Source: Gallionella sp. (GTDB taxonomy: Bacteria > Pseudomonadota > Gammaproteobacteria > Burkholderiales > Gallionellaceae). Taken from it: 64,000 bases of DNA. A program made the translations under genes and the position numbers. Each line of letters starts with the position of its first letter. The stretch's first letter is position 1. Shown here one piece after another: positions 3,052 through 21,987 of the stretch. Below the pieces are notes generated by a model. That model saw nothing but the letters and a program-made list of their open reading frames with translations. It searched no databases and was not told the origin of the DNA. The stretch spans positions 1 to 64,000 of the forward strand of contig JAQTTV010000009.1 of assembly GCA_028710565.1 (NCBI GenBank), in the 5' to 3' direction.

Positions 3052-3504
3052 TTGTCCCGCCACGCCACGCTGACCTTACGTCAACGCGCCTTTTCTTATC
3101 TGGCGCGGCGTGACTATAGTCGTTTGGAGTTGCGTGGCAAGTTATCGCCGTACTGGCAAGAAACCGATGAAAGTTTAGACACCTTGCTGGATGACCTAAC
3201 TGAGCGTGGCTATTTGTCCGATGCACGAGCTGCCACGCAGTTTTTGCACGCCAAACGTAGTCGCTTAGGCACGCAACGCATTACGCATGAATTGCGACAT
3301 AAAGGCATATCCGAAGAATTGATCCAAGAAGCCCTGCCCGAATTAAAAGCCACTGAATTTGAAACGGCGCTGGCGGTTTGGCAACGTAAATTCGGCACCC
3401 TGCCACCAGATGATAAAGAAAAGGCCAAGCAAATGCGCTTTATGCTGTCGCGTGGCTTTTCGTTTGCGACTATTTTCAAAATTCTCAAAGCGGATGACGA
3501 ATAG
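3052..3504 (+). CDS. recX: Regulatory protein RecX
   Basis: A 150-residue, all-helical RecX-type protein with three tandem three-helix repeats, visible as ARRDYSRLELRGKL, ERGYLSDARAATQFL and RKFGTLPPDDKEKAKQMRFMLSRGFSFATI. RecX binds RecA filaments and restrains recombinase activity. The start is the TTG at 3052: an in-frame TAA lies two codons upstream, and the first in-frame ATG would remove most of the protein. The Shine-Dalgarno is weak, so translation is probably low. The position right after recA supports the assignment. Confidence 0.93.
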   Translation: MSRHATLTLRQRAFSYLARRDYSRLELRGKLSPYWQETDESLDTLLDDLTERGYLSDARAATQFLHAKRSRLGTQRITHELRHKGISEELIQEALPELKATEFETALAVWQRKFGTLPPDDKEKAKQMRFMLSRGFSFATIFKILKADDE

Positions 3505-4447: not shown

Positions 4448-6046
4448 CTAAGCAGTTAGATGCTCAGCAAGACGCAAACTTAAGGCAGCGATGGTCAGTG
4501 TGGGATTCGCGGTTCCCATGGTGGGGAACACGCTCCCGCCTACGATATACAAATTGGGATGATCGTGACTACGGCAGTTTTGATCTACAACCGAATAACG
4601 TGGATCATGCCCCATTCTCGCCGTGCCACTTGGGTGATGAGAGGAATGCGCAATAGCAGGTAATGAAGGTTGGGCACCCATTTTAACGATTAAATCTTGC
4701 GCAAATTTGAGCCAAACCTCCATGCCATTTTTGATGTAATCATCAATTTGGTAATGAGTGCGTGGCAAGGGCAAGCTGAGTGGATCCAGCCGTTCTGTGT
4801 CTAGTGTCACGCGATTATGGGCTCTCGGAAGCTGCTCAAGTTCTCCTCCCAGACAACCATGATGTATAGTGACTTCTTTCAACACGTCAATAACATCGTG
4901 TATATGCTCTGGATTGTTAATCGTTTGCAAAGCGATTTCTTGGATATTGATGTCATTGCTGAGGAAAAGCTTGACCGCCGCGTGTCGGTATCGGAATGCA
5001 CCGTCTCGCCCCGTCATTACGCCCGACACAGACTGAGGCCCTCTCCCACCATAGATAGGCGTGCTCATCCTGAAATTATTAAAAAATATCAGGTGATCCA
5101 TGAGGTTGCGTCCCACTTGCCCCGATGAATTTGCGACACCGTCAGGCGCATATTCACCTGCAGACATCAACAATAAACGAGGCGTTTCGATGCTATTGCA
5201 CGCCACGACAAATCGCTTTGCTGTGACCCGATGACTGGTGCCATCGCGTAACTTGTAATGCGCGGCAACGACGTGCTTCTCGCCATTTAGCTCCAAACGA
5301 TAAACCGTTGCTCGGTCGATCAACTTTGCGCCTAATTGAACCGCATGACCTACATCCGTATCCGCACTGTACTGCGCACCTATAGGACAAATTGGGGTGC
5401 ACGTATTGTTGCCACGGCATTGTGGCCGATTATTGTAATCTGAACTATTTCTCGCCGCTGGAAAAGGTTTGACAGGTATGCCATGTTTAGCCAGCCGCTC
5501 GGCGATGACACGATCTGAATAAGGCATAGGGATGGCGGGCATGGGATAGTTTCCACTTCGTGGTGAACCATGATCGTCCGCACTATCACCTGAAATCCCA
5601 AGACTGTGCTCTGCTTTAAGGTAATACGGCTCTAAAGTAGCATAACTGATTGGCCAATCTACCCCCACACCATAACGGCTATGCAAGGCAAAATCAGCGG
5701 GCAAAAAACGCGGTGTCATCCCCGTCCAGTGCCAGGTCGTTCCACCAACTTGCTTTAAGTAGCTGGGGCGATACTCTGGCGAACTATTTTGACCGAAGTA
5801 GGCGGCGGCATTGCCTGCGTCAGGAATGGGAGCCCATGCCCACTGTGGATAAGGTGCAGCAAGATCTCGCACTAAAGAGTTACGGTATTTCTCAACCGCT
5901 TGATTGCGATCAATGTGACCACCTGATTCAATGATGCAAACAGACAGTCCTGCTTTGGCAAGCTCTCTCGCAAGCAAGGCACCCGCCACACCAGAACCTA
6001 CAATCACCAAATCGTAGTCCAATGAATTCACTGCATTAACAGTCAT
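4448..6046 (-). CDS. GMC-family FAD-dependent dehydrogenase, large subunit
   Basis: A 532-residue flavoprotein of the glucose-methanol-choline family. It has an N-terminal FAD-binding GSGVAGALLARELAKAG (residues 17-33), QVGGTTWHWTGMTPRF near 99-114, and a C-terminal SSHHPSGTARMG segment with the active-site His, followed by NPTLTIAAL. Cys210, Cys216 and Cys220 (C-x5-C-x3-C) match the spacing of the [3Fe-4S] ligands in membrane-bound bacterial FAD-glucose and fructose dehydrogenases. It overlaps the upstream small-subunit gene by 4 bp and is the last gene of the cellulose operon. The substrate is unknown; a sugar, sugar acid or polyol is likely. The cytochrome c subunit usual in this family is not encoded nearby. 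Confidence 0.88.
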   Translation of the reverse strand: MTVNAVNSLDYDLVIVGSGVAGALLARELAKAGLSVCIIESGGHIDRNQAVEKYRNSLVRDLAAPYPQWAWAPIPDAGNAAAYFGQNSSPEYRPSYLKQVGGTTWHWTGMTPRFLPADFALHSRYGVGVDWPISYATLEPYYLKAEHSLGISGDSADDHGSPRSGNYPMPAIPMPYSDRVIAERLAKHGIPVKPFPAARNSSDYNNRPQCRGNNTCTPICPIGAQYSADTDVGHAVQLGAKLIDRATVYRLELNGEKHVVAAHYKLRDGTSHRVTAKRFVVACNSIETPRLLLMSAGEYAPDGVANSSGQVGRNLMDHLIFFNNFRMSTPIYGGRGPQSVSGVMTGRDGAFRYRHAAVKLFLSNDINIQEIALQTINNPEHIHDVIDVLKEVTIHHGCLGGELEQLPRAHNRVTLDTERLDPLSLPLPRTHYQIDDYIKNGMEVWLKFAQDLIVKMGAQPSLPAIAHSSHHPSGTARMGHDPRYSVVDQNCRSHDHPNLYIVGGSVFPTMGTANPTLTIAALSLRLAEHLTA

Positions 6047-6592: not shown

Positions 6593-9571
6593 CTAATTCA
6601 GCCCAGCACCAGACTGCGAGGAGAGGTAATATGGTCGCGTTGGGCTAGGTGGGAAGCTTGTTCTATGACCTGGCTCAAAATCGTAACGCAGATATAGCAT
6701 TGCGCCTAACTGTTTGTAGGCTGGGGCTTCATCATAATGAAAACGATTGCCCAATACGAGTTGCTTGGCGACTGCGTATTCGACTGTCCAATCCGTTCTC
6801 CATGTGCCTTTAGCACCGACAATATTGCCCAAAGTCACACCCGTTGGTGGCAGCATCGCAGCTTGTCGAAGCGGATCTGTTGGGTAAATCAGCGCAGGTG
6901 TTTCAACGACTTCTGATATACCAGGACTGATATTAATTTCATAATTCAGCGTTTCAGTTTTGCCAGTCAAATGAAGGGGAAGACTGAAGCTCAAGTCACG
7001 CTGAGGGCTATAGTATCCCCCGTGTCCCCAGTAGAAGTAATTCTGATTATTGTCGAATCCTGCTCGCGATAAGCGTCCCGAAATGGATGCTTTAAAAGTA
7101 TCGGTATGCACTAATTCGTAAATCAACGATGCACTGAAATGGTTAGAGGTGTTGCTCAGTACATTTGCGCCTTCATAGCTGTAAAGTCCCATACTGGCAT
7201 AAGCTGCCCACGATCCGCTAATTGGACTATAAATAGACGCTTGTCCACCCATTTTAGTGACGCCGCCCCATGCAATGCCTGTCATATTGTCCACTGCACC
7301 CGCATAGGACAGTACACTTTCTGTGAGCGATCGACGAGAAAGCTCCAGCGCATAATTGGAACCATCAATATCTTGATTCACACGTAATCCGCCTACGACG
7401 TGATTAAATGCAAAACCTTGTGGACTTACCCCTATATCTGCTGACACTGTCCTTGATTGATAACCTGCTGAAAATGCCATGCCATTTGCACTGACAGGAT
7501 AAGAGGGCAATACCGCTGGCACGGGAAGATTTGTTCCAAACAGATCTAACCACAATGCAGCATCTCCTGCGTTCAAATTTACATTCGTCGCTTTGAATAC
7601 AAAGGATGATTGTTTATCTTCTAGCGGCACATGCCACGTAAGTGGAACCTCACTTTCATAGAGGTAGCTTAATCCATTTAAACCGCTTTTGTATCGCATG
7701 GAATAGCCCGTCTCAAAATAACCATCATGTTCAATTTGAGATCCAGCCAATTGACGATCAGGAGACTCAGAAATGTCCACCACTTTTACATGAGCCCCTA
7801 ATTCTCTAGCCACTGCAAAATAGACCTCAGCTTGGGTGAGATTTTGCTGCGACTCTGCGGTATGACCAGCATCAACATACAAGTCCACTCGCTGTGCATC
7901 ATCCAGACGAGATCCCGCTAAATATTGATCCGCTTTTGGATAATCACGCATTTGGATCGCATACATCGTACCTTGCCTTACGGCCTCATGATTTCCAGGC
8001 TCAATAACAAGAACCGAATCTATCACTTTTAATGCAGCGGGTAAGTCACGGGCTGTAGCTTGCAAACGTCCTTGTGCGAGTAGCAAATTCACATTCTGGG
8101 GATATTTGGCAAGTAAGGGGGCAAGTATACTCAACCCTTCAGAAGCTCTTTCTTGTCGATCCAAAGCATCAGCTTGACGCACTGCCAATACGATACGGAT
8201 TTCATCCCACTCACTCAATTGTTCACTACTGAATACATCAGGATGACTATCGATTTCGGCGAACAATTCATTCAGTTTCACGTCTTGATTGGCCTGCAGT
8301 AGCAGCCAGCCATACTGAAGTTGTGCGCCAGGTGTCAGTGGTTTGTTGCGTTCCAGAAAAGCAATGGCGTGATCATTCTGCTTAATTTTAACCCAGGTTT
8401 CGGTCACCACAGCGATAAGTTCAGGCTTACCTCCAGCATCATCTTCGACACTTGATAGGGCTTCAATTGCTTCCTGATTTTTTTCTTCTGCATACAGTTT
8501 TTTGGCTAAATCAGATTTGACGTACACAATGGCTCTAGATCGGAGTTCACGCATAGCCCCACTGCGTTCCTTTTCGGGAATATGATCAAGCAAAGGAAGT
8601 GTTAGTGCCCATTGATTTTCTTCTGAATAGAAAAGTGCTGCCATGAAGTTGGTGTCACGATCCTGAGCACTCGCCGTCATCGTTTCAATCGTTTTGTGCG
8701 CAGCACCAACATCACCTTGCTTACGCTGCAATCTCGCTAACGAAAGCGTTACCCAAGGATACTTGGAATATAGTGAATTTGCTTGTGCATAGTACTGAAT
8801 CGCCAAAGGAATATCACCCGCAGCCTCAGCAATTGCCCCTTTACCCGTCAATGCTTCACTGCGAAGTTGTGGCAAAATCGTAGTATCTTTTTTAACGGAT
8901 TCATACTGGTCAAAAAAAGACAACGCATTATCAAATTTTCGTAGTTTTAATGAGGCAATTGCCACACCAAATAGTCCTTCAGGGAATTTGGGGACAATGG
9001 TCAGTATTTCACGGTACGCCGCCTCTGCCTCTACATAATTACCATGTTCAAAAAGCTGATTTGCCAGCTTAATTTTTTCACGTGCTAAATTCTCTGGCAC
9101 CACAGGTGCTGCAACAGTTGGTGTTTTGTTTGGATAAAGAATTCTTTCCACATCGCCAATGACGGATTGTTTAGGATTGACCTGCTTTAACTTATTCAAA
9201 TATTCTTCAGCTTGCACTGTATTTTTGAGTTTTGCATGGTACAGAGCCAAGCCAGCCAAAGCTTCTTCTTGTCTATGATTACTATGTAAAATTCGTTCCC
9301 ATGCGGTTGCAGCAAGATCAGCTCGATTATGCGCTTTCCAATAGCGCGCTTTTACCAGCAAAGCATCAACCGCAGCCGATTGAGAGGTACTATTTTGCTT
9401 AGGTGTTGGGGCATCGTTTAACGCTAGCATAATGTTTTTATGCAAAGATTGCATGACAGAATTCTGATCGTTCACTGCCAATGTGACATGGCGGTCAGCC
9501 TCGGCATAACATGTCTGCATGGACATGATTGCCATACCAATAGAACCTGCGATTTTATTTAGTTTAAACAT
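6593..9571 (-). CDS. bcsC: Cellulose synthase outer-membrane subunit BcsC
   Basis: A 992-residue exported protein with a signal peptide (about residues 1-23). A long run of TPR-like helical repeats reaches to about residue 650, including ALAGLALYHAKLKN and AEAAYREILTIVPKFPEGLFG. The C-terminal BcsC beta-barrel region contains DLGVSPQGF-like and RHPY-type segments and ends with alternating strands. BcsC guides the nascent glucan through the periplasm and outer membrane. It is shorter than the E. coli homologue (about 1150 residues), mostly in the TPR part. The start overlaps the bcsZ end by 13 bp. Confidence 0.93.
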   Translation of the reverse strand: MFKLNKIAGSIGMAIMSMQTCYAEADRHVTLAVNDQNSVMQSLHKNIMLALNDAPTPKQNSTSQSAAVDALLVKARYWKAHNRADLAATAWERILHSNHRQEEALAGLALYHAKLKNTVQAEEYLNKLKQVNPKQSVIGDVERILYPNKTPTVAAPVVPENLAREKIKLANQLFEHGNYVEAEAAYREILTIVPKFPEGLFGVAIASLKLRKFDNALSFFDQYESVKKDTTILPQLRSEALTGKGAIAEAAGDIPLAIQYYAQANSLYSKYPWVTLSLARLQRKQGDVGAAHKTIETMTASAQDRDTNFMAALFYSEENQWALTLPLLDHIPEKERSGAMRELRSRAIVYVKSDLAKKLYAEEKNQEAIEALSSVEDDAGGKPELIAVVTETWVKIKQNDHAIAFLERNKPLTPGAQLQYGWLLLQANQDVKLNELFAEIDSHPDVFSSEQLSEWDEIRIVLAVRQADALDRQERASEGLSILAPLLAKYPQNVNLLLAQGRLQATARDLPAALKVIDSVLVIEPGNHEAVRQGTMYAIQMRDYPKADQYLAGSRLDDAQRVDLYVDAGHTAESQQNLTQAEVYFAVARELGAHVKVVDISESPDRQLAGSQIEHDGYFETGYSMRYKSGLNGLSYLYESEVPLTWHVPLEDKQSSFVFKATNVNLNAGDAALWLDLFGTNLPVPAVLPSYPVSANGMAFSAGYQSRTVSADIGVSPQGFAFNHVVGGLRVNQDIDGSNYALELSRRSLTESVLSYAGAVDNMTGIAWGGVTKMGGQASIYSPISGSWAAYASMGLYSYEGANVLSNTSNHFSASLIYELVHTDTFKASISGRLSRAGFDNNQNYFYWGHGGYYSPQRDLSFSLPLHLTGKTETLNYEINISPGISEVVETPALIYPTDPLRQAAMLPPTGVTLGNIVGAKGTWRTDWTVEYAVAKQLVLGNRFHYDEAPAYKQLGAMLYLRYDFEPGHRTSFPPSPTRPYYLSSQSGAGLN

Positions 9572-10659
9572 GCCTTGAACCCCATCACTAATTTACCATT
9601 TAAGTCAAACTGATAACGCTTGTCTAACCAACCATACCCTAATAGTTTTAACACTGAATCGTAATAACTTGAATCACCACCAAGAGAAAGAGGACTCTCT
9701 TCTTTATGTCCGTACACAGTACGACGATAAGGTGCAATCGCAGCAGCAAATCCACTTGGAGCTATCCCATCCTCATTACCACTTTTCACATTGATACGTT
9801 CAGGCAAGTTTGCATTTTCAGGTGAAAATTGAACCACATCGACCAAATAAGGGCGTAATGCTACATAAGCAGGATCACGTTGATTCAACATTGCCCACCA
9901 CAAATAAACACGAATTGCGTCGTAGCTGGTGTAGCTTCCTTTTTCATTATCTGGATAGAAGCCCTTTTGAACGCTATACAGCACCCAGTCAGCTACTAGC
10001 CCTCTATTTGATGTCGCGACGATCATTTTGAGCGTATTTTGGGCAATCTCATCCCATGGCCCCTCTTTATCTACCTTAGCAAAATAACGCAGTAATTGAA
10101 TAGGCATATAGCTGGGATTGAGCCGCCAAGTGTTTGCATTCACGGCGAATCCGTAGGGAGCGGGTAACAACATACTCCCCATTGCTGGCAAATCCACCAC
10201 CTCACGACGGGCAATATTTCTTAGCAAGGCAACCGCTGTTTCACGATAGGACTTTTCCTTCCATTGCTCTGCCGCATGAAATAGCGAATATGCTATCCAA
10301 AGATCAGCATCGCTAGCGGAATTCATATCAAGCGTCTTCCACGATCCATCATTTGACTTCCCCCATTTCCACGCTGGAAGGTGAATGCTTAAATTTCCTT
10401 GAGCTAAATTATCAACAGTCCATTTTAAAATACGGTCGAATTGCACCTTATCATCAGCAACCAGCGCCGAAAAAAGGGAGTAGGACTGACCTTCAGAAGT
10501 AGAGATGCCATCAGCACCGCGATCGACAACCCGTCCATCGAGTTGAATATACCCTTTAGTAAAGTCCTGCCACAAAGGCCATTTTTCAGCGCATGAAGCT
10601 TCAGCAAAAGATGAGAAAAAGGTTATCACTAGGATAAATGTGATACTTAATAGCCTCAT
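9559..10659 (-). CDS. bcsZ: Periplasmic endo-1,4-beta-glucanase BcsZ (GH8)
   Basis: A 366-residue glycoside hydrolase family 8 enzyme with a signal peptide ending near FAEASC. DGISTSEGQSYSLF contains the catalytic acid Glu, and SASDADLWIAYSL contains the Asp expected in the GH8 active site. BcsZ trims or edits cellulose during export and is a standard part of bcs operons. It lies between bcsB and bcsC and overlaps both (1 bp and 13 bp), which indicates translational coupling. Confidence 0.95.
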   Translation of the reverse strand: MRLLSITFILVITFFSSFAEASCAEKWPLWQDFTKGYIQLDGRVVDRGADGISTSEGQSYSLFSALVADDKVQFDRILKWTVDNLAQGNLSIHLPAWKWGKSNDGSWKTLDMNSASDADLWIAYSLFHAAEQWKEKSYRETAVALLRNIARREVVDLPAMGSMLLPAPYGFAVNANTWRLNPSYMPIQLLRYFAKVDKEGPWDEIAQNTLKMIVATSNRGLVADWVLYSVQKGFYPDNEKGSYTSYDAIRVYLWWAMLNQRDPAYVALRPYLVDVVQFSPENANLPERINVKSGNEDGIAPSGFAAAIAPYRRTVYGHKEESPLSLGGDSSYYDSVLKLLGYGWLDKRYQFDLNGKLVMGFKACLN

Positions 10660-12896
10660 TATTCAACCCTAGCTAGTCTAGTATCGACCCGACGTCTCAT
10701 AGAACGATAGGTCATAGATGAGAAGAAAAGGGCAATAACAAATGAGATAAATATTGCTAACCAAGGATTATTATGGACGAAGTTTCTTGCCCATTCTAAA
10801 AACGATCTTTGTCCAATGGAGAATTTCTTGGCCAATTCAAAAGTTGTGACACGATCATCGCCCTCTTTCTCCGATATGACAGAAACGTCACCCACAAAGT
10901 TTTTGGCAAACCAAAAAGTGTTTAACGTGGATGAAATGTCGACCAATCTAGGCGTATCTTTCGCTGCTAAAATCACTACGCCTCGTTGGCTTTGCATAGG
11001 GGACTCAAATTCCGCAACGACCATCTCACTTTCCTTTTTAAGATAATTGAACCTAGCCTTCACATCAGACCATTCCAACCATCTTTTCACATAATGGCTG
11101 CCAAAATACGGATAGGGTTGATCATCTGAGAGCAAATTCACAGGGATGCTACTTTTCCATTGATCAAGCAAAGTACGCAAACGATCAGTGCCACCGACCA
11201 CCAAAATGTCTTTGTCAGCAAATTTGCTTGCTGCATTGATTGAAGAAATTGAAACAGCAGTTGCTGGTGAGCCCGTTTTATTACCGATATGTCCCAACAT
11301 AGTCAGCATACTGTCGATTTCATACTGATCAGGAGTGTCTGGCATCAGCACAGCCGTTTCAGACAAATCTGCGTACTTACTAAAGGGATAAGCTGTATAG
11401 GCGAGATAGGACAAATCGGGCAACTCAACATAACGAGAGAGTTTGCTCAAATCAATGATTGAGTGTGGATCAACCTTAATTTCATCGATGACCAAAGCTT
11501 CGTTGCAAACCGCTACGGTTTTATCTGTGAAGACAAAACGCACGGTTATCGTATCTCGTCCTGTCAGATTTTTAGTTGGAATATTAAGTTGCAAACGATG
11601 CTTTATTCTGGCGGGAGCCGTTTCAATTGGTTTGTCAAATACTTCGTATTGAAACCTAATATCATTAAAGAACGCTTCAATGCGTGTTAAATAACGTGTG
11701 TTATTAGACGACTCGAAGGAAAAATCAACTGGGATAGACGTTGTTTCGGCGCGATAAACATTTGGGGGTAAATGCAAAACCATTTGATGCGGTGTTAAAA
11801 ACAATCCCCTTGCGGAGAGTTTTTCGGCAGGAACAATATCGCCAAGCGGAATCTTTCCTCCAATAGGTAACCACTTCGTTGAATCAAATGGAGTGTGTTT
11901 CGGCATACTTGGCACTTGCACACTCTGCATATCACCTTCAAGCGGGACTTTACCTAGGACGAGTGCTTGACTTGCCTTAATAAGACTTTCCTCATCACGC
12001 CCAACGATGAGTAGCAAACTTGTATTAGGATTTCTAGGATTCTTCACAACAGAAATCGTCGCTACTCCATTGCTTATGGGTGGCAGAACAAGTCCTTCAA
12101 TATGATCGGATGCTGTTGCCAATACAATGGCATCCTGCATAGGAAGTGCATCCAAGTAGCTTGCAAAATGTACTTTGCGCCAATCTACTAAACTACCAAA
12201 CCACGAAGCCATAATACCAGCCGACTTAAGGGTACCCCATGAAGGATGTTTGGGCAGCACCACCGTAAGTGTTGGATCACGAATGTCATGTTTATCAAAG
12301 AAAGGCAATGGAAACAAAGTAAGTTCGTTGCTGAGTGGCAACGTATCAACATCAGCTTCAATTAAGGTATCTTTGTTATTTAGTTGAATCCACAACTGCT
12401 GATCTCTTGGATTATCACAAAATGGTTTCTCTAAGTGCGATATAAACTGAAATGACAAATGATTCCAGTCTTGTAAATACAAGGGATCGATTTCGATCAC
12501 TGTCCGTACATTTTCTGAGGTTCCTTTTGGTAAGGCTAACTTACCGACAGGTTGACCATTTAAAGCAATTTGCAGATAGCTGGTTTGCGGATTTAAAGTG
12601 TTTGAATAGGAATAATGCAATTTCAAACGTAGACGCTTAACAATGTCCACGGTATGAAATGAAAAATCGATACTTGATGCGACATCTCCCCCAACAAGTC
12701 GTACTGCTCTTTCTTCCCCCAAATCCTTCAGCGAAAGTTGCATCACATGTTCAGGGGTGGGCTTTGTTTGCACACTATGCGGTTTAGTGGGCATAGCTGC
12801 AGCAACTGCACCACTTGCCATGGCTGTCAGGGTCCATAACAAAATGCTATGCGTTATTCTAAGAAAATATTTATTCATCGTGGACATCCAATTCAT
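10659..12896 (-). CDS. bcsB: Cellulose synthase periplasmic subunit BcsB
   Basis: A 745-residue BcsB with a signal peptide (cleavage near GAVAAA, possible starts at 12896, 12887 or 12878), alternating carbohydrate-binding and flavodoxin-like domains, and one C-terminal membrane anchor (NPWLAIFISFVIALFFSS) followed by a basic tail. The anchor packs against BcsA and is needed for catalysis. The ATG at 12896 forms an ATGA overlap with the bcsA stop, which favours that start. Confidence 0.95.
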   Translation of the reverse strand: MNWMSTMNKYFLRITHSILLWTLTAMASGAVAAAMPTKPHSVQTKPTPEHVMQLSLKDLGEERAVRLVGGDVASSIDFSFHTVDIVKRLRLKLHYSYSNTLNPQTSYLQIALNGQPVGKLALPKGTSENVRTVIEIDPLYLQDWNHLSFQFISHLEKPFCDNPRDQQLWIQLNNKDTLIEADVDTLPLSNELTLFPLPFFDKHDIRDPTLTVVLPKHPSWGTLKSAGIMASWFGSLVDWRKVHFASYLDALPMQDAIVLATASDHIEGLVLPPISNGVATISVVKNPRNPNTSLLLIVGRDEESLIKASQALVLGKVPLEGDMQSVQVPSMPKHTPFDSTKWLPIGGKIPLGDIVPAEKLSARGLFLTPHQMVLHLPPNVYRAETTSIPVDFSFESSNNTRYLTRIEAFFNDIRFQYEVFDKPIETAPARIKHRLQLNIPTKNLTGRDTITVRFVFTDKTVAVCNEALVIDEIKVDPHSIIDLSKLSRYVELPDLSYLAYTAYPFSKYADLSETAVLMPDTPDQYEIDSMLTMLGHIGNKTGSPATAVSISSINAASKFADKDILVVGGTDRLRTLLDQWKSSIPVNLLSDDQPYPYFGSHYVKRWLEWSDVKARFNYLKKESEMVVAEFESPMQSQRGVVILAAKDTPRLVDISSTLNTFWFAKNFVGDVSVISEKEGDDRVTTFELAKKFSIGQRSFLEWARNFVHNNPWLAIFISFVIALFFSSMTYRSMRRRVDTRLARVE

Positions 12897-15013
12897 GACT
12901 TGCTTGACTTGCTTGACTCGCTATATTGGCGCGCACCCAAACGCGCACGAGCTATTCCCATTCCACTAAAACGTATCAATTCCTTTAAGCCTCTCAATGG
13001 ATGATCCACTTCTTCTCTCACCTTAATCCAATTAAGCCAAGAATCAGCTCTCGACAACGTAGCCGCAACAAGATTTCGCTCTTGTGTCAAGGAAAGACTA
13101 TCAAAGCGTAATCGTAGCTTCTGGTCATATTGCGCCACGACAACGGCAGGCAGGTCATACTCAATCTCGCCCCGATATAGATGCAGTTGAATCTTTTGTT
13201 CAGGCGTAAAGTTCACCTCTTTAGGAACTTTCAATGCAATTCCACCCAATGAATAATTATCACTATGGCAATTTACTTTTTGCCCTGATGCCAAACTAAT
13301 TGCAGCAGGAATATTTCTGTCTACACGCCAGCTTTTCCGAATATCCTTGGTTTCAAAGGCAACTGCAATTGTTGCGGAAATGATAATCAGATTATAGATA
13401 GTCCAGAATCCATTAATCAGCACGGTATCCCACTCATACGCGTTAATCCAGAGCAAACGCATAATACCCACCAATAGCCCTGCTACGTTTAGCACCAACA
13501 AAACAATATAAGGTCTTGCAATTTTCCAATCGAAGTACTCTTCCTCGATATGCCCACCTTTTACAGTAACATTAAATTTCCCAGCCTTAGGATTGACTAG
13601 GGCAAATAGCGCTGGCCACATAATGTACCAAGCCAACGCCGTTTCGTATGCTTCTGTCCAGAATGAGTGACGATGCGGTCCTTGCAGGCGAGAGTTCACC
13701 ATAAACGCCAACATCAAATGCGGTAGCGCGTAGATCAAAATCTCTGCCGCAGGTGCATCAATAATGTAGCTCCCGAAGAACATATATGCCAAAGGGGAAA
13801 GCAAAAAGAACATTCTTGGAAAGCCGTTCATAAAATGCAACGCGGCATTGGCATAGCAAAAACGCTGTGCAAAAGTCAGCCCCTTGCCAAGCAAAGGACA
13901 ATCTGTTCGGAATATTTGCACCATGCCGCGCGCCCACCGCATTCTTTGCTTAACGTGGGCACCTAAAGTTTCTGTCGCTAAACCAGCAGCTTGTGTAATA
14001 TTCAGGTAAGCAGAGTTATATCCCTTACGATGCAGCTTTAAAGAGGTATGCGCATCTTCAGTAACGGTCTCTGTTGCGATTCCGCCAATCTCATCGAGCG
14101 GAGCTCTCTTTAGGATGGCACAGGATCCGCAAAAAAACGCGGCATTCCACAAATCATTGCCATCTTGCACCAATCCATAAAAGAGCGCGCCTTCGTTTGG
14201 CACTTCACGAAAGGCAGATAGGTTGCGTTCAAACGGATCAGGTGATAAAAAATGATGCGGTGTTTGCACCAATGCCAATTTGGGATCAGCTAAAAACCCA
14301 CCCATACTAACTTGTAAGAAAGAACGCGTAGGAATATGGTCACAATCGAAAACGGCAATGTATTCCCCTGATATTTGCAGGAGTGCATTGTTTAGATTAC
14401 CCGCTTTAGCGTGCTTATTATCTTCACGAGCAATATAACCAACGCCAATTTCATTCGCAAAAGCTTTAAAATCAGGGCGATTTCCATCATCCAATAGATA
14501 AATTTTGAGCTTGTCCGCTGGCCAGTCCAGCAAGGTCGCTGCCATCACGGTTGTTCGGACGATTTCAAGCGGTTCGTTATACGTTGGAATTAAAACGTCA
14601 ACTGAAGGCCATACTTTTGGATTGGGCGGTAAGGCTGTAAAAGTGCGATTTAAGGGCCAAATTGTTTGGAAATAGCCTAATACCAAGACCAACCAAGCAT
14701 ATGCCTCAGAAACCATTAGACCCACACTAAATGCACCATTGAGCCAAGTGGTGGTATTCACGGTCTCAGTCACACGCCAGTACAAATAGCGAGAAGAAAC
14801 GACGACCGACAAAGAAATCATCACCAACGTGATGAAGCTCCCTGAATAAATCCGCAGGTAAAAGACAAGGAGCAGCACCCCAATAGCAAACATAGTTTGC
14901 TCTTCCCCGCTCAACGGCATCAAGACAGCCCAAGCTGTAAATACCAACATGATGATTGTTGCCGTCCAGCTAATGATACCCAAGCCCCAGCCTTTCCAAG
15001 CAACAATTGACAC
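12893..15013 (-). CDS. bcsA: Cellulose synthase catalytic subunit BcsA (c-di-GMP dependent)
   Basis: A 706-residue membrane glycosyltransferase (GT2) that polymerises UDP-glucose. Visible motifs are the substrate-site Asp residues in SVDVLIPTYNEP and LLDDGNRPD, the DCD at 223-225, TED at 318-320 and QRMRW at 356-360. A C-terminal PilZ domain has RKSWRVDR and NYSLGG, the c-di-GMP binding pattern. Several membrane helices flank the catalytic domain. The only in-frame start is the GTG at 15013 with a nearby TAAGG. A better-placed ATG at 15062 overlaps the upstream stop but is out of frame by one base because of a G9 tract (see separate entry). Confidence 0.95.
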   Translation of the reverse strand: MSIVAWKGWGLGIISWTATIIMLVFTAWAVLMPLSGEEQTMFAIGVLLLVFYLRIYSGSFITLVMISLSVVVSSRYLYWRVTETVNTTTWLNGAFSVGLMVSEAYAWLVLVLGYFQTIWPLNRTFTALPPNPKVWPSVDVLIPTYNEPLEIVRTTVMAATLLDWPADKLKIYLLDDGNRPDFKAFANEIGVGYIAREDNKHAKAGNLNNALLQISGEYIAVFDCDHIPTRSFLQVSMGGFLADPKLALVQTPHHFLSPDPFERNLSAFREVPNEGALFYGLVQDGNDLWNAAFFCGSCAILKRAPLDEIGGIATETVTEDAHTSLKLHRKGYNSAYLNITQAAGLATETLGAHVKQRMRWARGMVQIFRTDCPLLGKGLTFAQRFCYANAALHFMNGFPRMFFLLSPLAYMFFGSYIIDAPAAEILIYALPHLMLAFMVNSRLQGPHRHSFWTEAYETALAWYIMWPALFALVNPKAGKFNVTVKGGHIEEEYFDWKIARPYIVLLVLNVAGLLVGIMRLLWINAYEWDTVLINGFWTIYNLIIISATIAVAFETKDIRKSWRVDRNIPAAISLASGQKVNCHSDNYSLGGIALKVPKEVNFTPEQKIQLHLYRGEIEYDLPAVVVAQYDQKLRLRFDSLSLTQERNLVAATLSRADSWLNWIKVREEVDHPLRGLKELIRFSGMGIARARLGARQYSESSKSSKS

Positions 15014-15028
15014 GGCGGCCTTACTTGG

Positions 15029-15037
15029 CCCCCCCCC
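15029..15037 (-). other. G9 homopolymer tract separating a coupled ATG from the bcsA frame
   Basis: On the minus strand an ATG at 15062-15060 overlaps the bcsQ-like stop as ATGA, the same junction used at bcsA/bcsB and at the dehydrogenase pair. Reading from it gives 13 codons to a TAA at 15023-15021. If the nine G residues at 15037-15029 were eight (or eleven), the frame would run on into bcsA and add an N-terminus starting MKIDKRYKWGGPSKAAV. This is the layout of a slipped-strand phase-variable start, although a length error in the assembly would look the same. Confidence 0.7.
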
Positions 15038-15058
15038 ACTTGTATCGTTTGTCGATTT

Positions 15059-15892
15059 TCATAAGTCGAGCTTTCTTGCGATAAAGCTTAAGATACCATC
15101 TAGATTTTTGTACTCGACAGAGTTCGAGCTACCAATGTTGGAAAGTGTTTGCACGTTTGGTATAGATTCTTTGTGGAGAGAAAAAGACACGAATAAATCT
15201 TGATGTGAAACCAATTCATCAAATAACAATGGGGAGAGATTTTCAGATCCGTCTGAACTGATCAGTAAGTATCCAACCTTGGACTGAACATCGGCGGACA
15301 GAATCTCGTGGATTTCCGACTCAATATCTTCAATCGCACGGACAACTGCAACCGTCGCGGGAATCAGAATCAATAGCATGTCTGCCATTGCAATCGCTTG
15401 ATGTCGGATGTGCATGACGCGTTCTGGCACATCAACAAAAATCAAACCATCGTCATCATCTGCGGTGATTTCATTTCCGAGCCAATTTATATCCTTTGCC
15501 AACTCCATGCGAACAACTTGGTCTGATGTATTCAGTAAAATATGCTTAATGCCATCCTCAACAAGGAAGGACGTATCCTCGTGTACGCTATCGGACGCAA
15601 ATAAATCGACTACTCGAACAGGTCGCTTGTATCGCTTAGCCGCCATCCATGCCAAACCTGATACCAGTTTTTTTCCTGGCATCTGACCAATTGAAATAAC
15701 GGCAACAACTTTACTGCTTCGCGCTACAGGGGCGATATGATCCGTCACAATACCAGCGAGTTTAGCTTGTGTGCGTCTCAACAATACCCTGTCAATACGC
15801 TTATGAAAGTTATCCTCGGTCTGAAAATCCAGATATGAGTAAGTCCCTTGACCCAATTGTTGGTAAAGGTGTGAGATGTCATCCCTTTGCAT
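15059..15892 (-). CDS. BcsQ-like MinD/ParA-family protein with BcsR/BcsP-like N-terminus
   Basis: A 277-residue protein, first gene of the bcs operon. The first 25 residues (MQRDDISHLYQQLGQGTYSY) resemble the short BcsR/BcsP regulators of cellulose synthase. The remainder has the MinD-type layout, a strand-loop-helix at VVAVISIGQMPGKKLVSGL, DLFASDS where a switch Asp is expected, and GLIFVDVPERV as a Walker B-like strand. The Walker A loop lacks the KGG-x-GKT signature of ParA proteins, so ATP binding is doubtful. BcsQ localises cellulose synthesis to the pole in enterobacteria. The role here is inferred from position and fold pattern. Confidence 0.7.
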   Translation of the reverse strand: MQRDDISHLYQQLGQGTYSYLDFQTEDNFHKRIDRVLLRRTQAKLAGIVTDHIAPVARSSKVVAVISIGQMPGKKLVSGLAWMAAKRYKRPVRVVDLFASDSVHEDTSFLVEDGIKHILLNTSDQVVRMELAKDINWLGNEITADDDDGLIFVDVPERVMHIRHQAIAMADMLLILIPATVAVVRAIEDIESEIHEILSADVQSKVGYLLISSDGSENLSPLLFDELVSHQDLFVSFSLHKESIPNVQTLSNIGSSNSVEYKNLDGILSFIARKLDL

Positions 15893-15967: not shown

Positions 15968-16028
15968 AACTTACGCGAATCTTTCATTGATACCGCTCAC
16001 AACTTACGATAACTTACGGCAACTTACG
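15968..16028. promoter_or_regulatory. Phased AACTTACG repeats upstream of the bcs operon
   Basis: AACTTACG occurs at 15968-15975, 16001-16008, 16011-16018 and 16021-16028; the last three are spaced exactly 10 bp apart, one helical turn, and a degenerate GCTTACACG follows at 16032. They lie 76-136 bp upstream of the first bcs gene in an AT-rich, gene-free region, a plausible place for cooperative binding of an activator or repressor. No known regulator is recognised. The rest of 15893-16364 is AT-rich and non-coding. Confidence 0.55.
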
Positions 16029-16256
16029 ATTGCTTACACGAATATTACATATACAATAATCGTGCATATATGCGCCCGAATTATCCAGTATGTTGTGAAT
16101 TGCTGCAATGACGTTATGCAATGTGCATAGACATTAAGCCGCAATAATTTAAAGTATTAAGCAATAACAATTAGTTGCAAGATTAATATTAAGAGGCAGC
16201 GAAATTGAAGTGTGAGAAGCATGTTGTTTATCTAATTAGACTTAACTAGAACAAGA

Positions 16257-18330: not shown

Positions 18331-21300
18331 TTATTCTTCTTTGAGGTTCTTTTTGGGGTAAAGCCGAAGCTTGCCATCTTTTTCCTTAAAGGATGAAATA
18401 ATCCCTTTTTCTTTTAGCTTCTCAGCGAACTGTTTATTCAAACTACTATTCTCGATAACGGGCTGTTGATTACTTGCAATGCCCAAAAATGGGGAACCGA
18501 GCGATGTGATCAGGCTTGAAATGACGGGTTCGGCTAAAAAATCCATCTGACTGTTTAACAACCTGACCTTTTCGGATAATTGCCTATCTTGCTTAAGAAG
18601 AACCTCTAACAAAGGAAGGCGCAGTTCAGAGTGTGCTTTGGGGTTCAGCAAAATGGCATAGACCAATCTAGCTAGTTCAGTATCGCCATCAAAAGTATTC
18701 GCATCAACATGATGAATAATCGTAATTTTCTGATCGGTAGTGACTGCTTCAGATTTCAACAAGTATTTAACGCCAACAGCATCCAATTCGTAAGTAGCTA
18801 TATTTTGGAGATAGTCGTCTATATGTTTTTCAACTAATAATGCGTACTGAGGGTTAAAGTTTTTCTTGAGTGCATCAAAATTCTCTTGGGTAAATTGAAA
18901 TTTGCCATTTTTTATCAAGATACCGACCTTAATACTAGATAAGTTTTCAAGACTTGGAATTGGGCTATACCAATATGGAATACACCTTACCAGTCGTTCA
19001 TAACTTTGATCCGACAAACCTACACATACAATTAAAAGTCGTGAAATCTTCTGTATTATTTCTTTAGAAAAACTATCACTCTCCTTTAGTCTAGATTTCG
19101 TTAATACCTCATAATTCTCTTGTCGATTTAAAAAGGTCACCATCGCATCATCAATGACATCCTTATTAGCGAAGTAACAAAGCAAATTCTCCCAAGTCGC
19201 TTTAACTTTAGAGGAAGTGATTATTTTGTCCCACAGCGCAACATCCGTGATAGTTGAAATATCTAATATCCGAGCATTCTCCTTTTGAAGAATCGCGACT
19301 TTGTATTCGTCTTCGAGATTTTCATTGTTAAGTAGGTTAACGATAGTCTCTTCAGCCTCATCGACATTCTCTGCCAGTAGCAACATGACTTTCTCAACAT
19401 ACTCATTGATGTTGGTGTTGATGTAGGTGATTAACGCTGGGCAATTGGACTCAAGAATAGTCGTGTAATTAGATTTTTGAATGGCGCTACCCTTCAACGC
19501 ATCAGGATTGTTGCGTTGAATAATGAGCGCAATCATTTTTTCGTTGATTGCATAGAAATCATTTTCATAGACAAAGCTAAAAAGCTCCTCGTTCGCTTCA
19601 GGATTCTCGATATATACGAATTCGGGGGCTAAACGCTTAACAACTTCCTTCAACTTGGGCATATATTCGACATCAGCCGTAAAGCTCAAGAAATCCTCCT
19701 TCTGTGCGACATATCGTGTTAATTCGGCCTTGCCATTCATTGTCACTACATCTTCTATGTCGGCATGAAGAATAATCATTTTCAAATATCGATTTTTCTT
19801 TTCGGCGGTATATCCTGACTCACGCAAAATACAATTCCAGAAATCAGGCCATCTTTTGCAAAGCCGATGAATTAACCAACCTTCGTGGCTTGGATCAGTC
19901 AAATAAGCATCAATAAACTCCAATGAGCTTTTTTTGTTGTTACTTATTTGATCCATCATTAACTCAAGGTATTCGTTGTTTGCCGAATCCTGAAATAATG
20001 TACTCAACAAATCGAAATTCAGCACGGCTGCTTTTTTGAAATCCGCGCGATTCAACCTTTTGATGACCTCTTTAACTTGGTTCAATGAGTGGGTGAATGA
20101 TAAAGCCTCTTGATTTTTAACGCTGAAGATAAACGTCAGATCGTTTTTAGTTATATTTCCTTCGTAAAAATGGGAAATAAATGTTTCATACATTTCGTCG
20201 ATATAACCATTCCTAATTAAATAAACCAGCAATTTCTCTTTTTTGATTTCTGCATCAAAAATACTTTCTAAGGAATGTATCTCAATTAAATTCTTAACAC
20301 TCAATGAGTGAATATCACGTTTTTGCTCACTTAGCTCTTGGATTTCCTTCTTTATCGCTTCGATACGCCCATTTGTTTTTTTAATAATTAGGCGTTCCCT
20401 ATCATCATATGAGAAGTTCGGATCAACGAAGTTTTCAATAGTTCTAAATGCGATGCCTGAATGTTGAGAATAATTGTTATATTGATATTGGATGTTTGTT
20501 TGGCTTCTTAGTGACACAAATATAACGTCACTCAAAAGCGACGCGAACCCATGCCAACCGTTATTTACATACACCGAGTTGCAACTCGGTATCTTTTCAA
20601 AGACAGCGGCTACATACATTCTGCGCAAATCAATAATATCGGGTGATTTCTCATTTTCGATGTGAAACAACTCTTCTTTTAGTTCATCAATACTATTCTC
20701 AACAACTAGAGCCAACTTATTAACCAAGTCTCTTTTGCAATTAAAAACCCCTGCCACCATGCCTGTATTTAAGTTCAGTTGCGCAAAATCGTCGGGATAC
20801 TTATTTTTATAGACAATAAATCCCAGCAGCTTATCTAGCGGCAACGCTATTCCACCACTGGCGGTTAACTTATCCTGATACAAAACAAATTCATTGTGAA
20901 TGTTTTTCAACATCCGCATATCTTCGATGTATAGCGTTATGTCGTTAACGAAGTCCCTTGAAATCGCTGAGTTCGATAATTTCTTAAATAAAATATCACC
21001 CGAATTGGACGCATTGATGACGGGAATGATGGGGATGATAAAGTCAAAAAACTTTGTTCTATTAGCTTTCTGAAATACATCATCACGGATTGCGTAGATA
21101 AAAACTATTTTTCTGCAAATTTGGTCAGCGTTATTGATGAGTGTATTCAACTCCCTGAGTTTAATGAAAATATCGACTTCATCGAATCTATCCAAATCCT
21201 CAATCACAACAACATCGAATTTTGTTTTTTCAAAGAAATACAAAATCTCGTCTAAATGCTTATTAAGAATTGAAGCACCTTGTAATTCATCGAACTTAAT

Positions 21301-21987
21301 GCCTTCCGCTGAGACAGCAATATTGTTTAGTTTGAAATGACTAAATGCAGCAAATATCTGCTTGATAACAACGGCCGCTCCCAAGAGGGCAAATATGATC
21401 GACGCGAGCAAATAGGTTTGATTATCAAACGCTTCCTGCCCAAGGATTGCTTGGTACAATTTGTTTTCAGGTTTATACGCATAGAACGCGGTGGCAAGCC
21501 AAAGAACCAACATCACGGAGTTGAGTAAGTAACTGTGAAATGCAATGTTTTTGATTCGGCTAAATCGGGAAAATGGAATTACTTTATCCGTTACCCGATA
21601 AAAAATTTGCTGCAATACGCTTTTCTCGATTAAAGAATTGCGGTTTCCATCGGTCGCGTCATTTTGAATATCATCTTTGAATGAACCGAGAGAAATATTT
21701 AGGTATTTATATCCCTTATGCTCTCTTTCAAAAGTCCTTAGAACGCTGCTTTTGCCTGCCCCGTAAGGGCCCGTAATGGCGATATTTTTTACGTTCTCAT
21801 TTTTCAAAGCCCATGCAATGGCACTCGAGTATTTTTTGTCCTCATCTGCATTATCTATCGGTGTTAAGTCTTCATAACGATTCGGATTATCAATTTCTTC
21901 ATTTTTAGTGACTATGGCATCTAGCGTATGTAATTTCCTTATTATAAACACAAGCACCTTGCTAAGATTGTTCTTTACAGTACGCAT
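18331..21987 (-). CDS. YobI-type/KAP-like membrane P-loop NTPase
   Basis: A 1218-residue STAND-like NTPase. LTPIDNADEDKKYSSAI (41-57) is the conserved lead-in of YobI-family proteins. Walker A is GPYGAGKSS (73-81) and Walker B with the D-x-D-R-F extension is VVVIEDLDRFDEVD (259-272). Two membrane helices are inserted between them (about 152-171 and 191-212), as in KAP ATPases. The remaining roughly 800 residues are a helical, repeat-rich tail typical of a sensor. The gene is AT-rich compared with its neighbours and stands alone beside restriction debris, so recent acquisition is likely. Related large P-loop NTPases act in phage defence; that role is inference here. Confidence 0.8.
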   Translation of the reverse strand: MRTVKNNLSKVLVFIIRKLHTLDAIVTKNEEIDNPNRYEDLTPIDNADEDKKYSSAIAWALKNENVKNIAITGPYGAGKSSVLRTFEREHKGYKYLNISLGSFKDDIQNDATDGNRNSLIEKSVLQQIFYRVTDKVIPFSRFSRIKNIAFHSYLLNSVMLVLWLATAFYAYKPENKLYQAILGQEAFDNQTYLLASIIFALLGAAVVIKQIFAAFSHFKLNNIAVSAEGIKFDELQGASILNKHLDEILYFFEKTKFDVVVIEDLDRFDEVDIFIKLRELNTLINNADQICRKIVFIYAIRDDVFQKANRTKFFDFIIPIIPVINASNSGDILFKKLSNSAISRDFVNDITLYIEDMRMLKNIHNEFVLYQDKLTASGGIALPLDKLLGFIVYKNKYPDDFAQLNLNTGMVAGVFNCKRDLVNKLALVVENSIDELKEELFHIENEKSPDIIDLRRMYVAAVFEKIPSCNSVYVNNGWHGFASLLSDVIFVSLRSQTNIQYQYNNYSQHSGIAFRTIENFVDPNFSYDDRERLIIKKTNGRIEAIKKEIQELSEQKRDIHSLSVKNLIEIHSLESIFDAEIKKEKLLVYLIRNGYIDEMYETFISHFYEGNITKNDLTFIFSVKNQEALSFTHSLNQVKEVIKRLNRADFKKAAVLNFDLLSTLFQDSANNEYLELMMDQISNNKKSSLEFIDAYLTDPSHEGWLIHRLCKRWPDFWNCILRESGYTAEKKNRYLKMIILHADIEDVVTMNGKAELTRYVAQKEDFLSFTADVEYMPKLKEVVKRLAPEFVYIENPEANEELFSFVYENDFYAINEKMIALIIQRNNPDALKGSAIQKSNYTTILESNCPALITYINTNINEYVEKVMLLLAENVDEAEETIVNLLNNENLEDEYKVAILQKENARILDISTITDVALWDKIITSSKVKATWENLLCYFANKDVIDDAMVTFLNRQENYEVLTKSRLKESDSFSKEIIQKISRLLIVCVGLSDQSYERLVRCIPYWYSPIPSLENLSSIKVGILIKNGKFQFTQENFDALKKNFNPQYALLVEKHIDDYLQNIATYELDAVGVKYLLKSEAVTTDQKITIIHHVDANTFDGDTELARLVYAILLNPKAHSELRLPLLEVLLKQDRQLSEKVRLLNSQMDFLAEPVISSLITSLGSPFLGIASNQQPVIENSSLNKQFAEKLKEKGIISSFKEKDGKLRLYPKKNLKEE

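Follow-up and report, generated by a model that had tools for sequence, protein, structure and literature searches.

The start of bcsA, the gene for the catalytic subunit of cellulose synthase, is split between two reading frames by a run of nine Gs (G9) in a 64,000-nucleotide stretch of Gallionella sp. DNA (GenBank assembly GCA_028710565.1, contig JAQTTV010000009.1, positions 1 to 64,000; hereafter the window). The run is one base longer than in the nearest genome of the same genus, G052. We read the window sequence as an allele of bcsA set out of frame by replication slippage and reversible by the same route, with a probability of about 0.6; phase variation is plausible but unproven. Two assembled tract lengths, the frames on either side of them, a conserved N-terminus and an intact, constrained gene body make up the observed part of this picture. 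The tract is remarkable for its place, inside a conserved N-terminal motif, and for its one-base difference from the sister genome, more than for its length.

Reading frames and probable ancestral start of bcsA

On the minus strand, the letters across the bcsA start read ...CTCGACTTATGAAAATCGACAAACGATACAAGTGGGGGGGGGCCAAGTAAGGCCGCCGTGTCAATTG... An ATG at 15062 lies within the end of the upstream open reading frame (ORF; 15892-15059), whose TGA occupies 15061-15059; the two overlap as ATGA, a junction of the same type as that between bcsA and bcsB. In the G9 state the frame opened by this ATG encodes MKIDKRYKWGGAK, 13 codons long, and then meets the TAA at 15023-15021; the third reading frame through the bcsA start meets a stop as well. 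The BcsA frame is otherwise entered only at a GTG (15013) lying 7 nt past the TAA; a TAAGG that overlaps this stop precedes the GTG at 5 nt. The tract, at the 5' coding end of the gene, covers codons 9-11 (Trp-Gly-Gly) counted from the ATG, and 49 nt (16 codons plus one nucleotide) separate ATG from GTG. The initial annotation had placed all these elements correctly, including the ATGA overlaps at the two ends of bcsA, and had predicted that removing one G would join the ATG to bcsA and give a protein with 16 more N-terminal residues. This is the arrangement found in G052, which carries eight Gs (G8) and whose frame reads from the ATG as MKIDKRYKWGGPSKAAVSIV... directly into BcsA. The two BcsA proteins are 99% identical, and DNA identity is 96.6% over 4,830 columns and 95.4% over 11,041 columns. 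In G052 the gene begins ATG AAA ATC GAC AAA CGA TAC AAA TGG GGG GGG CCA AGT AAG GCC GCC GTG, the tract being made by the two GGG codons of a Gly-Gly pair; GGG accounts for 30 of the 175 glycine codons of the bcs operon.

The corresponding N-terminus is encoded with ordinary glycine codons in two further genomes. G051 encodes VKKNKRYKWGGPSRAAV from a GTG start with glycine codons GGT GGA (GTG AAG AAG AAC AAG CGT TAC AAG TGG GGT GGA CCT AGT), and the Gallionellaceae genome STA_88 encodes VKIDKRYTWGGPSK, also from GTG, with GGC GGC (GTG AAA ATA GAT AAA CGC TAT ACA TGG GGC GGC CCC AGC). The codon aligned to the window's GTG at 15013 is GTT in the former and CAA in the latter. The BcsA of Ferriphaselus R-1, 60% identical, carries GRYLWGVPNK. 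Among 80 named loci, the best 80 of 572 matches, the pattern R[YF]x[WYF]G was searched for from 40 residues before to 10 residues after the aligned GTG position. It occurred in 29, in every case at offset -11 from that position, and was absent from this stretch in the remaining 51; shuffled segments contained it 0.17 times on average, at any offset. The 29 loci are not independent, since 11 of them belong to Undibacterium. A BcsA-like match at 1e-100 was obtained in 20 of 76 same-genus genomes, and a plasmid search returned bcsA-like DNA only at 60-80% identity.

Chance coding of the segment between ATG and GTG is ruled out by the sister genome, by G051 and STA_88 and by the fixed offset of the motif. 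The motif thus appears to be an old part of this type of BcsA, and the window would hold its two halves in two frames flanking the tract. The comparison strongly supports the ATG as the natural, ancestral start of bcsA. From the sister's G8, the N-termini of the relatives and the fixed spacing of the motif, it follows that G8 is probably the ancestral length and the window probably a +1 allele of an otherwise intact and constrained gene.

In the mechanism we favour, bcsA would start at the ATG, with its Trp-Gly-Gly codons containing a G8 run in the ancestral allele, and replication slippage would have added one G to give the allele of the window. Ribosomes coupled from the upstream gene would then start at the ATG and stop at the TAA, and some may reinitiate at the GTG with its TAAGG, producing a BcsA whose first 16 residues are missing, and with them the RYxWGGP motif, which is conserved, and some of the helix ahead of the first transmembrane segment (TM1). 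Loss of one G would in principle reverse the change, giving an occasional phase switch. In this scheme four points are inferred: that the ninth G is real DNA, that ribosomes reinitiate, that cellulose is affected at all, and that the change can be undone within a population.

Translated from the GTG, BcsA keeps positions 9-705 of the TIGR03030 profile, matching from residue 14, and keeps TM1. An AlphaFold2 model of the STA_88 protein (mean predicted local distance difference test score, pLDDT, of 83; residues 1-7 below 50) has a moderate-confidence helix at residues 11-20 and TM1 at 28-47. The GTG position corresponds to residue 17, inside that helix, and the alignment with cellulose synthases of known structure starts at residue 28 or later. 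Because the TIGR03030 match, TM1 and the structural alignments all start later, loss of the 16 residues removes the conserved motif and no catalytic part. The G9 state could correspond to a synthase that is off, weaker or differently assembled. The N-terminal domain of Escherichia coli BcsA recruits BcsG, according to one report (PMC11470070); this does not settle the role of the short N-terminus, because the core match starts at E. coli residue 153.

The two lengths might instead choose between isoforms, G8 giving BcsA with the 16 additional residues and G9 the 706-residue GTG form through termination and reinitiation. The overlap of the TAA with TAAGG just before the GTG would suit reinitiation, and the GTG form retains the profile match and TM1. 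We regard this as possible while inclining against it: relatives do not share the GTG as a start, the strongest anti-Shine-Dalgarno pairing ahead of it falls within the G tract, at a distance of 15 nt that is too great for a normal site, and the conservation of the lost motif implies that the short form may not work. The proposal of the initial annotation, that the tract switches the start of BcsA on and off, is therefore borne out in part. What is supported is an ancestral start at the ATG, its joining to bcsA by G8 and a length difference from the sister; the "off" side is weakened by a GTG form that retains TM1 and the whole profile match 7 nt past the stop, and the switching side by a tract kept no further than two sister genomes.

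Accuracy, frequency and retention of G tracts

On some sequencing platforms no error is commoner than a one-base error in a long homopolymer, and the window belongs to a draft genome of 69 contigs (3.27 Mb). An assembly or consensus error, with a true tract of G8 and bcsA simply starting at the ATG, would fit both the sister's G8 and the intact, constrained sequence downstream. We nevertheless hold such an error to be somewhat unlikely. The genome contains 41 distinct (merged) G runs of at least eight, and at 31 of them the longest nearby ORF crosses the tract unbroken; the other ten include a tRNA-like site (judged by eye), sites without an ORF, bcsA and a run of 15 Gs (G15). This count makes it less likely that the assembly is wrong at G runs in general, although an unbroken ORF is no proof that a run is right. 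Comparison with the sister, limited to tracts of at least eight in both genomes, gave 15 BLAST pairs, of which ten were the same site by their flanks, one was ambiguous and four were different sites. Eight of the ten are equal in length, a ninth differs by a substitution, and an indel separates the two genomes only at bcsA; for one of the ten, situated in a repeated gene family, the pairing is less sure. Across 11 paired loci (15,374 columns) there were two gaps that are not multiples of three, neither of them at a G tract.

Rarity alone does not make the G9 run telling, as shuffles and genome-wide counts both indicate. G9 occurs once in the window, against 0.26 expected from shuffles, 14 of 100 of which contained at least one. 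Genome-wide there are 17 runs of at least nine; nine-mers of G number 27 (7 of them within the single G15) where about 13 are expected, and eight-mers 68 where about 55 are expected, under a second-order Markov model derived from the window and scaled up to genome size. G9 runs are thus at most about twice as frequent as chance would have them. As to retention, 97 of the 99 relative loci L002-L100 could be used (L016 and L062 lack the region; the segment falls within an insert in L013, and is shifted by one base in L003, which was read directly). A G run of at least seven was present in one of these 97 loci, or one of 90 distinct segments, namely that of G052. When 158 family genomes were scanned for the motif, it turned up at ten places, spread over nine genomes; five of these places lie in bcsA by coordinates (G051, G052, G086, G087 and G092), again with the run in G052 only; Ferriphaselus R-1 has a run of 6 Gs only. 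These distributions suggest that the run arose by codon choice in two sister genomes, and nothing in them points to a switch maintained by selection over the long term.

They also bear on the idea of an evolved contingency locus, in which selected slippage between G8 and G9 varies cellulose output among the cells of one population. The start-proximal position in a surface-polysaccharide gene and the frame-moving length difference between sisters, G9 with the frame off in the window and G8 with the frame on in G052 (one genome each), would agree with it. A Bordetella screen took tracts differing between close species as strong candidates (PMC1891110), and the genome of the window carries the G15 in the leader of a PAS-PAS-GAF-HD gene, though the two known lengths of this tract differ by three and so share one frame. 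We consider an evolved locus improbable. The run is lineage-specific, with seven or more Gs in just one of the 90 distinct segments from relatives, and the frequency of G9 runs is no more than about double the chance level. The evidence therefore lends no support to a purpose-built switch, whose tract would be expected to be more widely retained.

The G15 itself, the longest G tract of the genome, lies at C33:109050-109064 (L238 3051-3065); about 0.002 G fifteen-mers are expected in the genome. A relative in G062 (L240) has 12 Gs in a nearly identical leader, and leaders of this type were found in these two genomes only in the scan of 158 family genomes. With either length, the frame of an upstream ATG stays open across the tract (MKSTNMRGGGG...) and closes at a TGA, which forms an ATGA overlap with the second ATG of the gene. 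G15 and G12 share this frame because they differ by three, and only a change that is not a multiple of three would break it. Pfam assigns HD_5 to the protein, whose HHEKLDGSGYP string is like that of HD-GYP phosphodiesterases. By length this tract is a better contingency candidate than that of bcsA, but its two known lengths show no change of frame. As a putative cyclic di-GMP phosphodiesterase the protein, if it lowers cyclic di-GMP, would act on the same PilZ-bearing synthase. That the two poly-G tracts together vary cellulose stochastically, at the levels of synthesis and signal, strikes us as very improbable, and is weakened by the one frame shared by G15 and G12; if true, it would place stochastic cellulose variation in a free-living iron oxidiser rather than in a host-associated bacterium.

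State of bcsA and of the bcs operon

By its domains, the gene downstream of the tract encodes the catalytic subunit of a cellulose synthase. BcsA scores 871.4 bits against TIGR03030 (CelA; cut-off 699.1) and is above cut-off for PF00535 (GT2) and PF07238 (PilZ), narrowly missing the narrower NF008558 (983.5 against 992). The bcsB, bcsZ and bcsC products are above cut-off for PF03170, for PF01270 with NF008305, and for PF05420, respectively; the scores against the NCBIfam BcsB and BcsC models lie below the cut-offs of those models. The upstream gene (Table 1) does not qualify as BcsQ, scoring 22.4 bits against TIGR03371 (cut-off 157.85) over residues 130-199 only; it has no Pfam match at 0.01 and a non-significant BcsP signal (E 0.13).

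Up to the 3' repeat, the BcsA body differs from that of G052 by 29 synonymous and 7 nonsynonymous codons. The corresponding divergences (nonsynonymous, dN; synonymous, dS) are dN 0.0044, dS 0.070 and dN/dS 0.06 by NG86, and dN 0.0060, dS 0.048 and dN/dS 0.12 by YN00, the ratio being method-dependent. The upstream gene, also constrained, has 13 synonymous and 2 nonsynonymous codon differences, and bcsB (1,473 nt) has 37 and 7. With so few nonsynonymous relative to synonymous differences, and neighbours that behave alike, bcsA has not been long adrift as a pseudogene. Over the 11.0 kb aligned, window and sister are separated by five gaps: two ahead of the operon, one a 6-base and the other a 10-base repeat unit, the G itself, one of 27 bases, equal to three 9-bp units, where bcsA ends, and one of 6 bases at 6020. 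Among the gaps inside bcs genes, that of the G alone has a length that is not a multiple of three. Four of the five fall at tandem repeats, a pattern that neutral slippage gives too.

Table 1. Positions in the window of the elements at the bcsA start, of the bcs genes and of nearby repeats
Feature	Position	Strand	Remark
G9 homopolymer	15029..15037	-	In Trp-Gly-Gly part of conserved N-terminal motif; +1 relative to G8 of sister G052
ATG, probable ancestral bcsA start codon	15060..15062	-	Overlaps upstream TGA as ATGA
TAA ending the ATG frame of the G9 state, after 13 codons	15021..15023	-	Part of TAAGG
GTG opening the BcsA frame in the G9 state	15011..15013	-	Inner Val codon in sister G052
N-terminal segment, 49 nt	15014..15062	-	Homologous to relatives' N-terminus; tract splits two frames; MKIDKRYKWGGPSKAA in sister
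bcsA body, 706 aa, cellulose synthase catalytic subunit with PilZ domain	12893..15013	-
3' end of bcsA, 9-bp repeats AGTCAAGCA	12893..12918	-	Sister 27 bp longer, in frame
Upstream gene, 277 aa, weakly BcsQ-like (aa 130-199)	15059..15892	-	Stop overlaps bcsA ATG
bcsB	10659..12896	-
bcsZ, endoglucanase (GH8)	9559..10659	-
bcsC, outer-membrane subunit	6593..9571	-
Three 10-bp units ending CGTAAGTT	16001..16030	-	Upstream of bcs operon; sister 10 bp shorter

The AGTCAAGCA repeat encodes a Ser/Lys-rich C-terminal tail of BcsA, to which the sister (L002 near 3420-3474) adds three units in frame. One more CGTAAGTT occurs at 15975-15968, and the helical spacing of these units hints at a candidate regulator site. 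Farther off, 18331-21987 of the window encodes a 1218-residue protein with a YobI-like P-loop NTPase domain (PF20693).

The G9 allele might also mark the beginning of a permanent loss of bcsA, as one of several independent lesions of cellulose synthase in the genus. Among the 16 same-genus genomes matching at 1e-200, two more have lesions near the 5' end of the gene: G051 (L003 around 1487-1504) has a frameshift at about codons 60-65 in the sister's numbering, with no long homopolymer there, and in G004 (L013 3322-4661) an insert of about 1340 bp, carrying a DDE transposase ORF (PF01609, PF14294), interrupts the gene at about codon 97. The other 13 were seen through match tables only, and bcsA of G061 is cut by a contig end. 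With lesions in 3 of 16 genomes, 13 of them known from tables only, recent loss frames the G9 allele as well as phase variation does. As an outcome we judge permanent loss unlikely: purifying selection acts on the gene body just as on the neighbouring genes, so any loss would be recent, the frameshift in G051 may be erroneous too, and slippage reverts more readily than insertion.

Several considerations weigh against our preferred reading, a slippage-made and reversible frame-off allele. A fixed loss of function would look identical. The G9 rests on one draft assembly, in which a one-base error may have occurred, and one genome per tract length offers no evidence of switching. Slippage need not be fast, since MutS is present; a MutS domain was found in 5 of the 5 genomes searched, leaving loss of mismatch repair unsupported as a cause. 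Shine-Dalgarno pairing is almost nil at the bcsA ATG (-0.7 kcal/mol, against a background median of -2.4), so that use of this codon would rest on coupling to the upstream gene. Pairing at bcsB is likewise weak (-0.2 kcal/mol), and the ATGA junctions at bcsA and bcsB fit translational coupling and are no proof of it. The likelihoods that we attach to the various alternatives overlap and do not sum to one.

Relation to known switches and significance

Slippage-driven switching of surface genes has precedents. One is gsmA of Mycoplasma agalactiae, which encodes a beta-(1->6)-glucan synthase and contains a poly(G) tract; when the tract changes in length, the product is switched (PMC12103780). Like bcsA, gsmA is a polysaccharide gene with an internal poly(G) tract; unlike bcsA, with one length per genome, it is reported to switch at high frequency, and the polymer, host and operon differ. 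Staphylococcus icaB and icaC, biofilm polysaccharide genes (poly-N-acetylglucosamine), are put out of frame reversibly by slipped-strand repeats (PMC4432689, PMC10049468), in their case short multi-base repeats rather than a G run at the start of a synthase gene. In Listeria monocytogenes a frameshift in a 5' homopolymeric tract of inlA leaves an 8-residue product (PMC2831843), which resembles the 13 codons of bcsA in the start-proximal tract and very short product; the inlA tract is poly(A), the gene is of another class and the frequency was measured. Pilus genes of Bifidobacterium breve, a non-pathogenic commensal, have a surface structure controlled by slippage in intragenic G tracts (PMC9187656), as bcsA might; there the mixture of lengths was measured by deep sequencing, and the structures are pili, not cellulose. 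Within the family of the window, the bcsABZC genes of Ferriphaselus OYT1 and R-1 have been proposed, without a genetic test, to act in "dread" formation (PMC4643136); R-1 differs from the window in its shorter G run. Wrinkled variants have been attributed to ordinary mutations, with no tract switch in the part of the report available (PMC8919034). No report of cellulose phase variation through a start-proximal poly-G tract was found among the papers listed in the literature searched, which lacked the majority of subscription journals. The kind of switching, by poly-G slippage in surface genes, is thus known; the gene and the host would be new.

The extracellular polymers of iron oxidisers are thought to keep the cells free of iron crust. 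If both tract lengths show up in sequencing reads, an environmental bacterium from a family of iron oxidisers would have a poly-G switch in the catalytic gene of its cellulose synthase. Even without a switch, the start of BcsA is corrected for the group, the GTG that opens the frame in the window not being the ancestral start.

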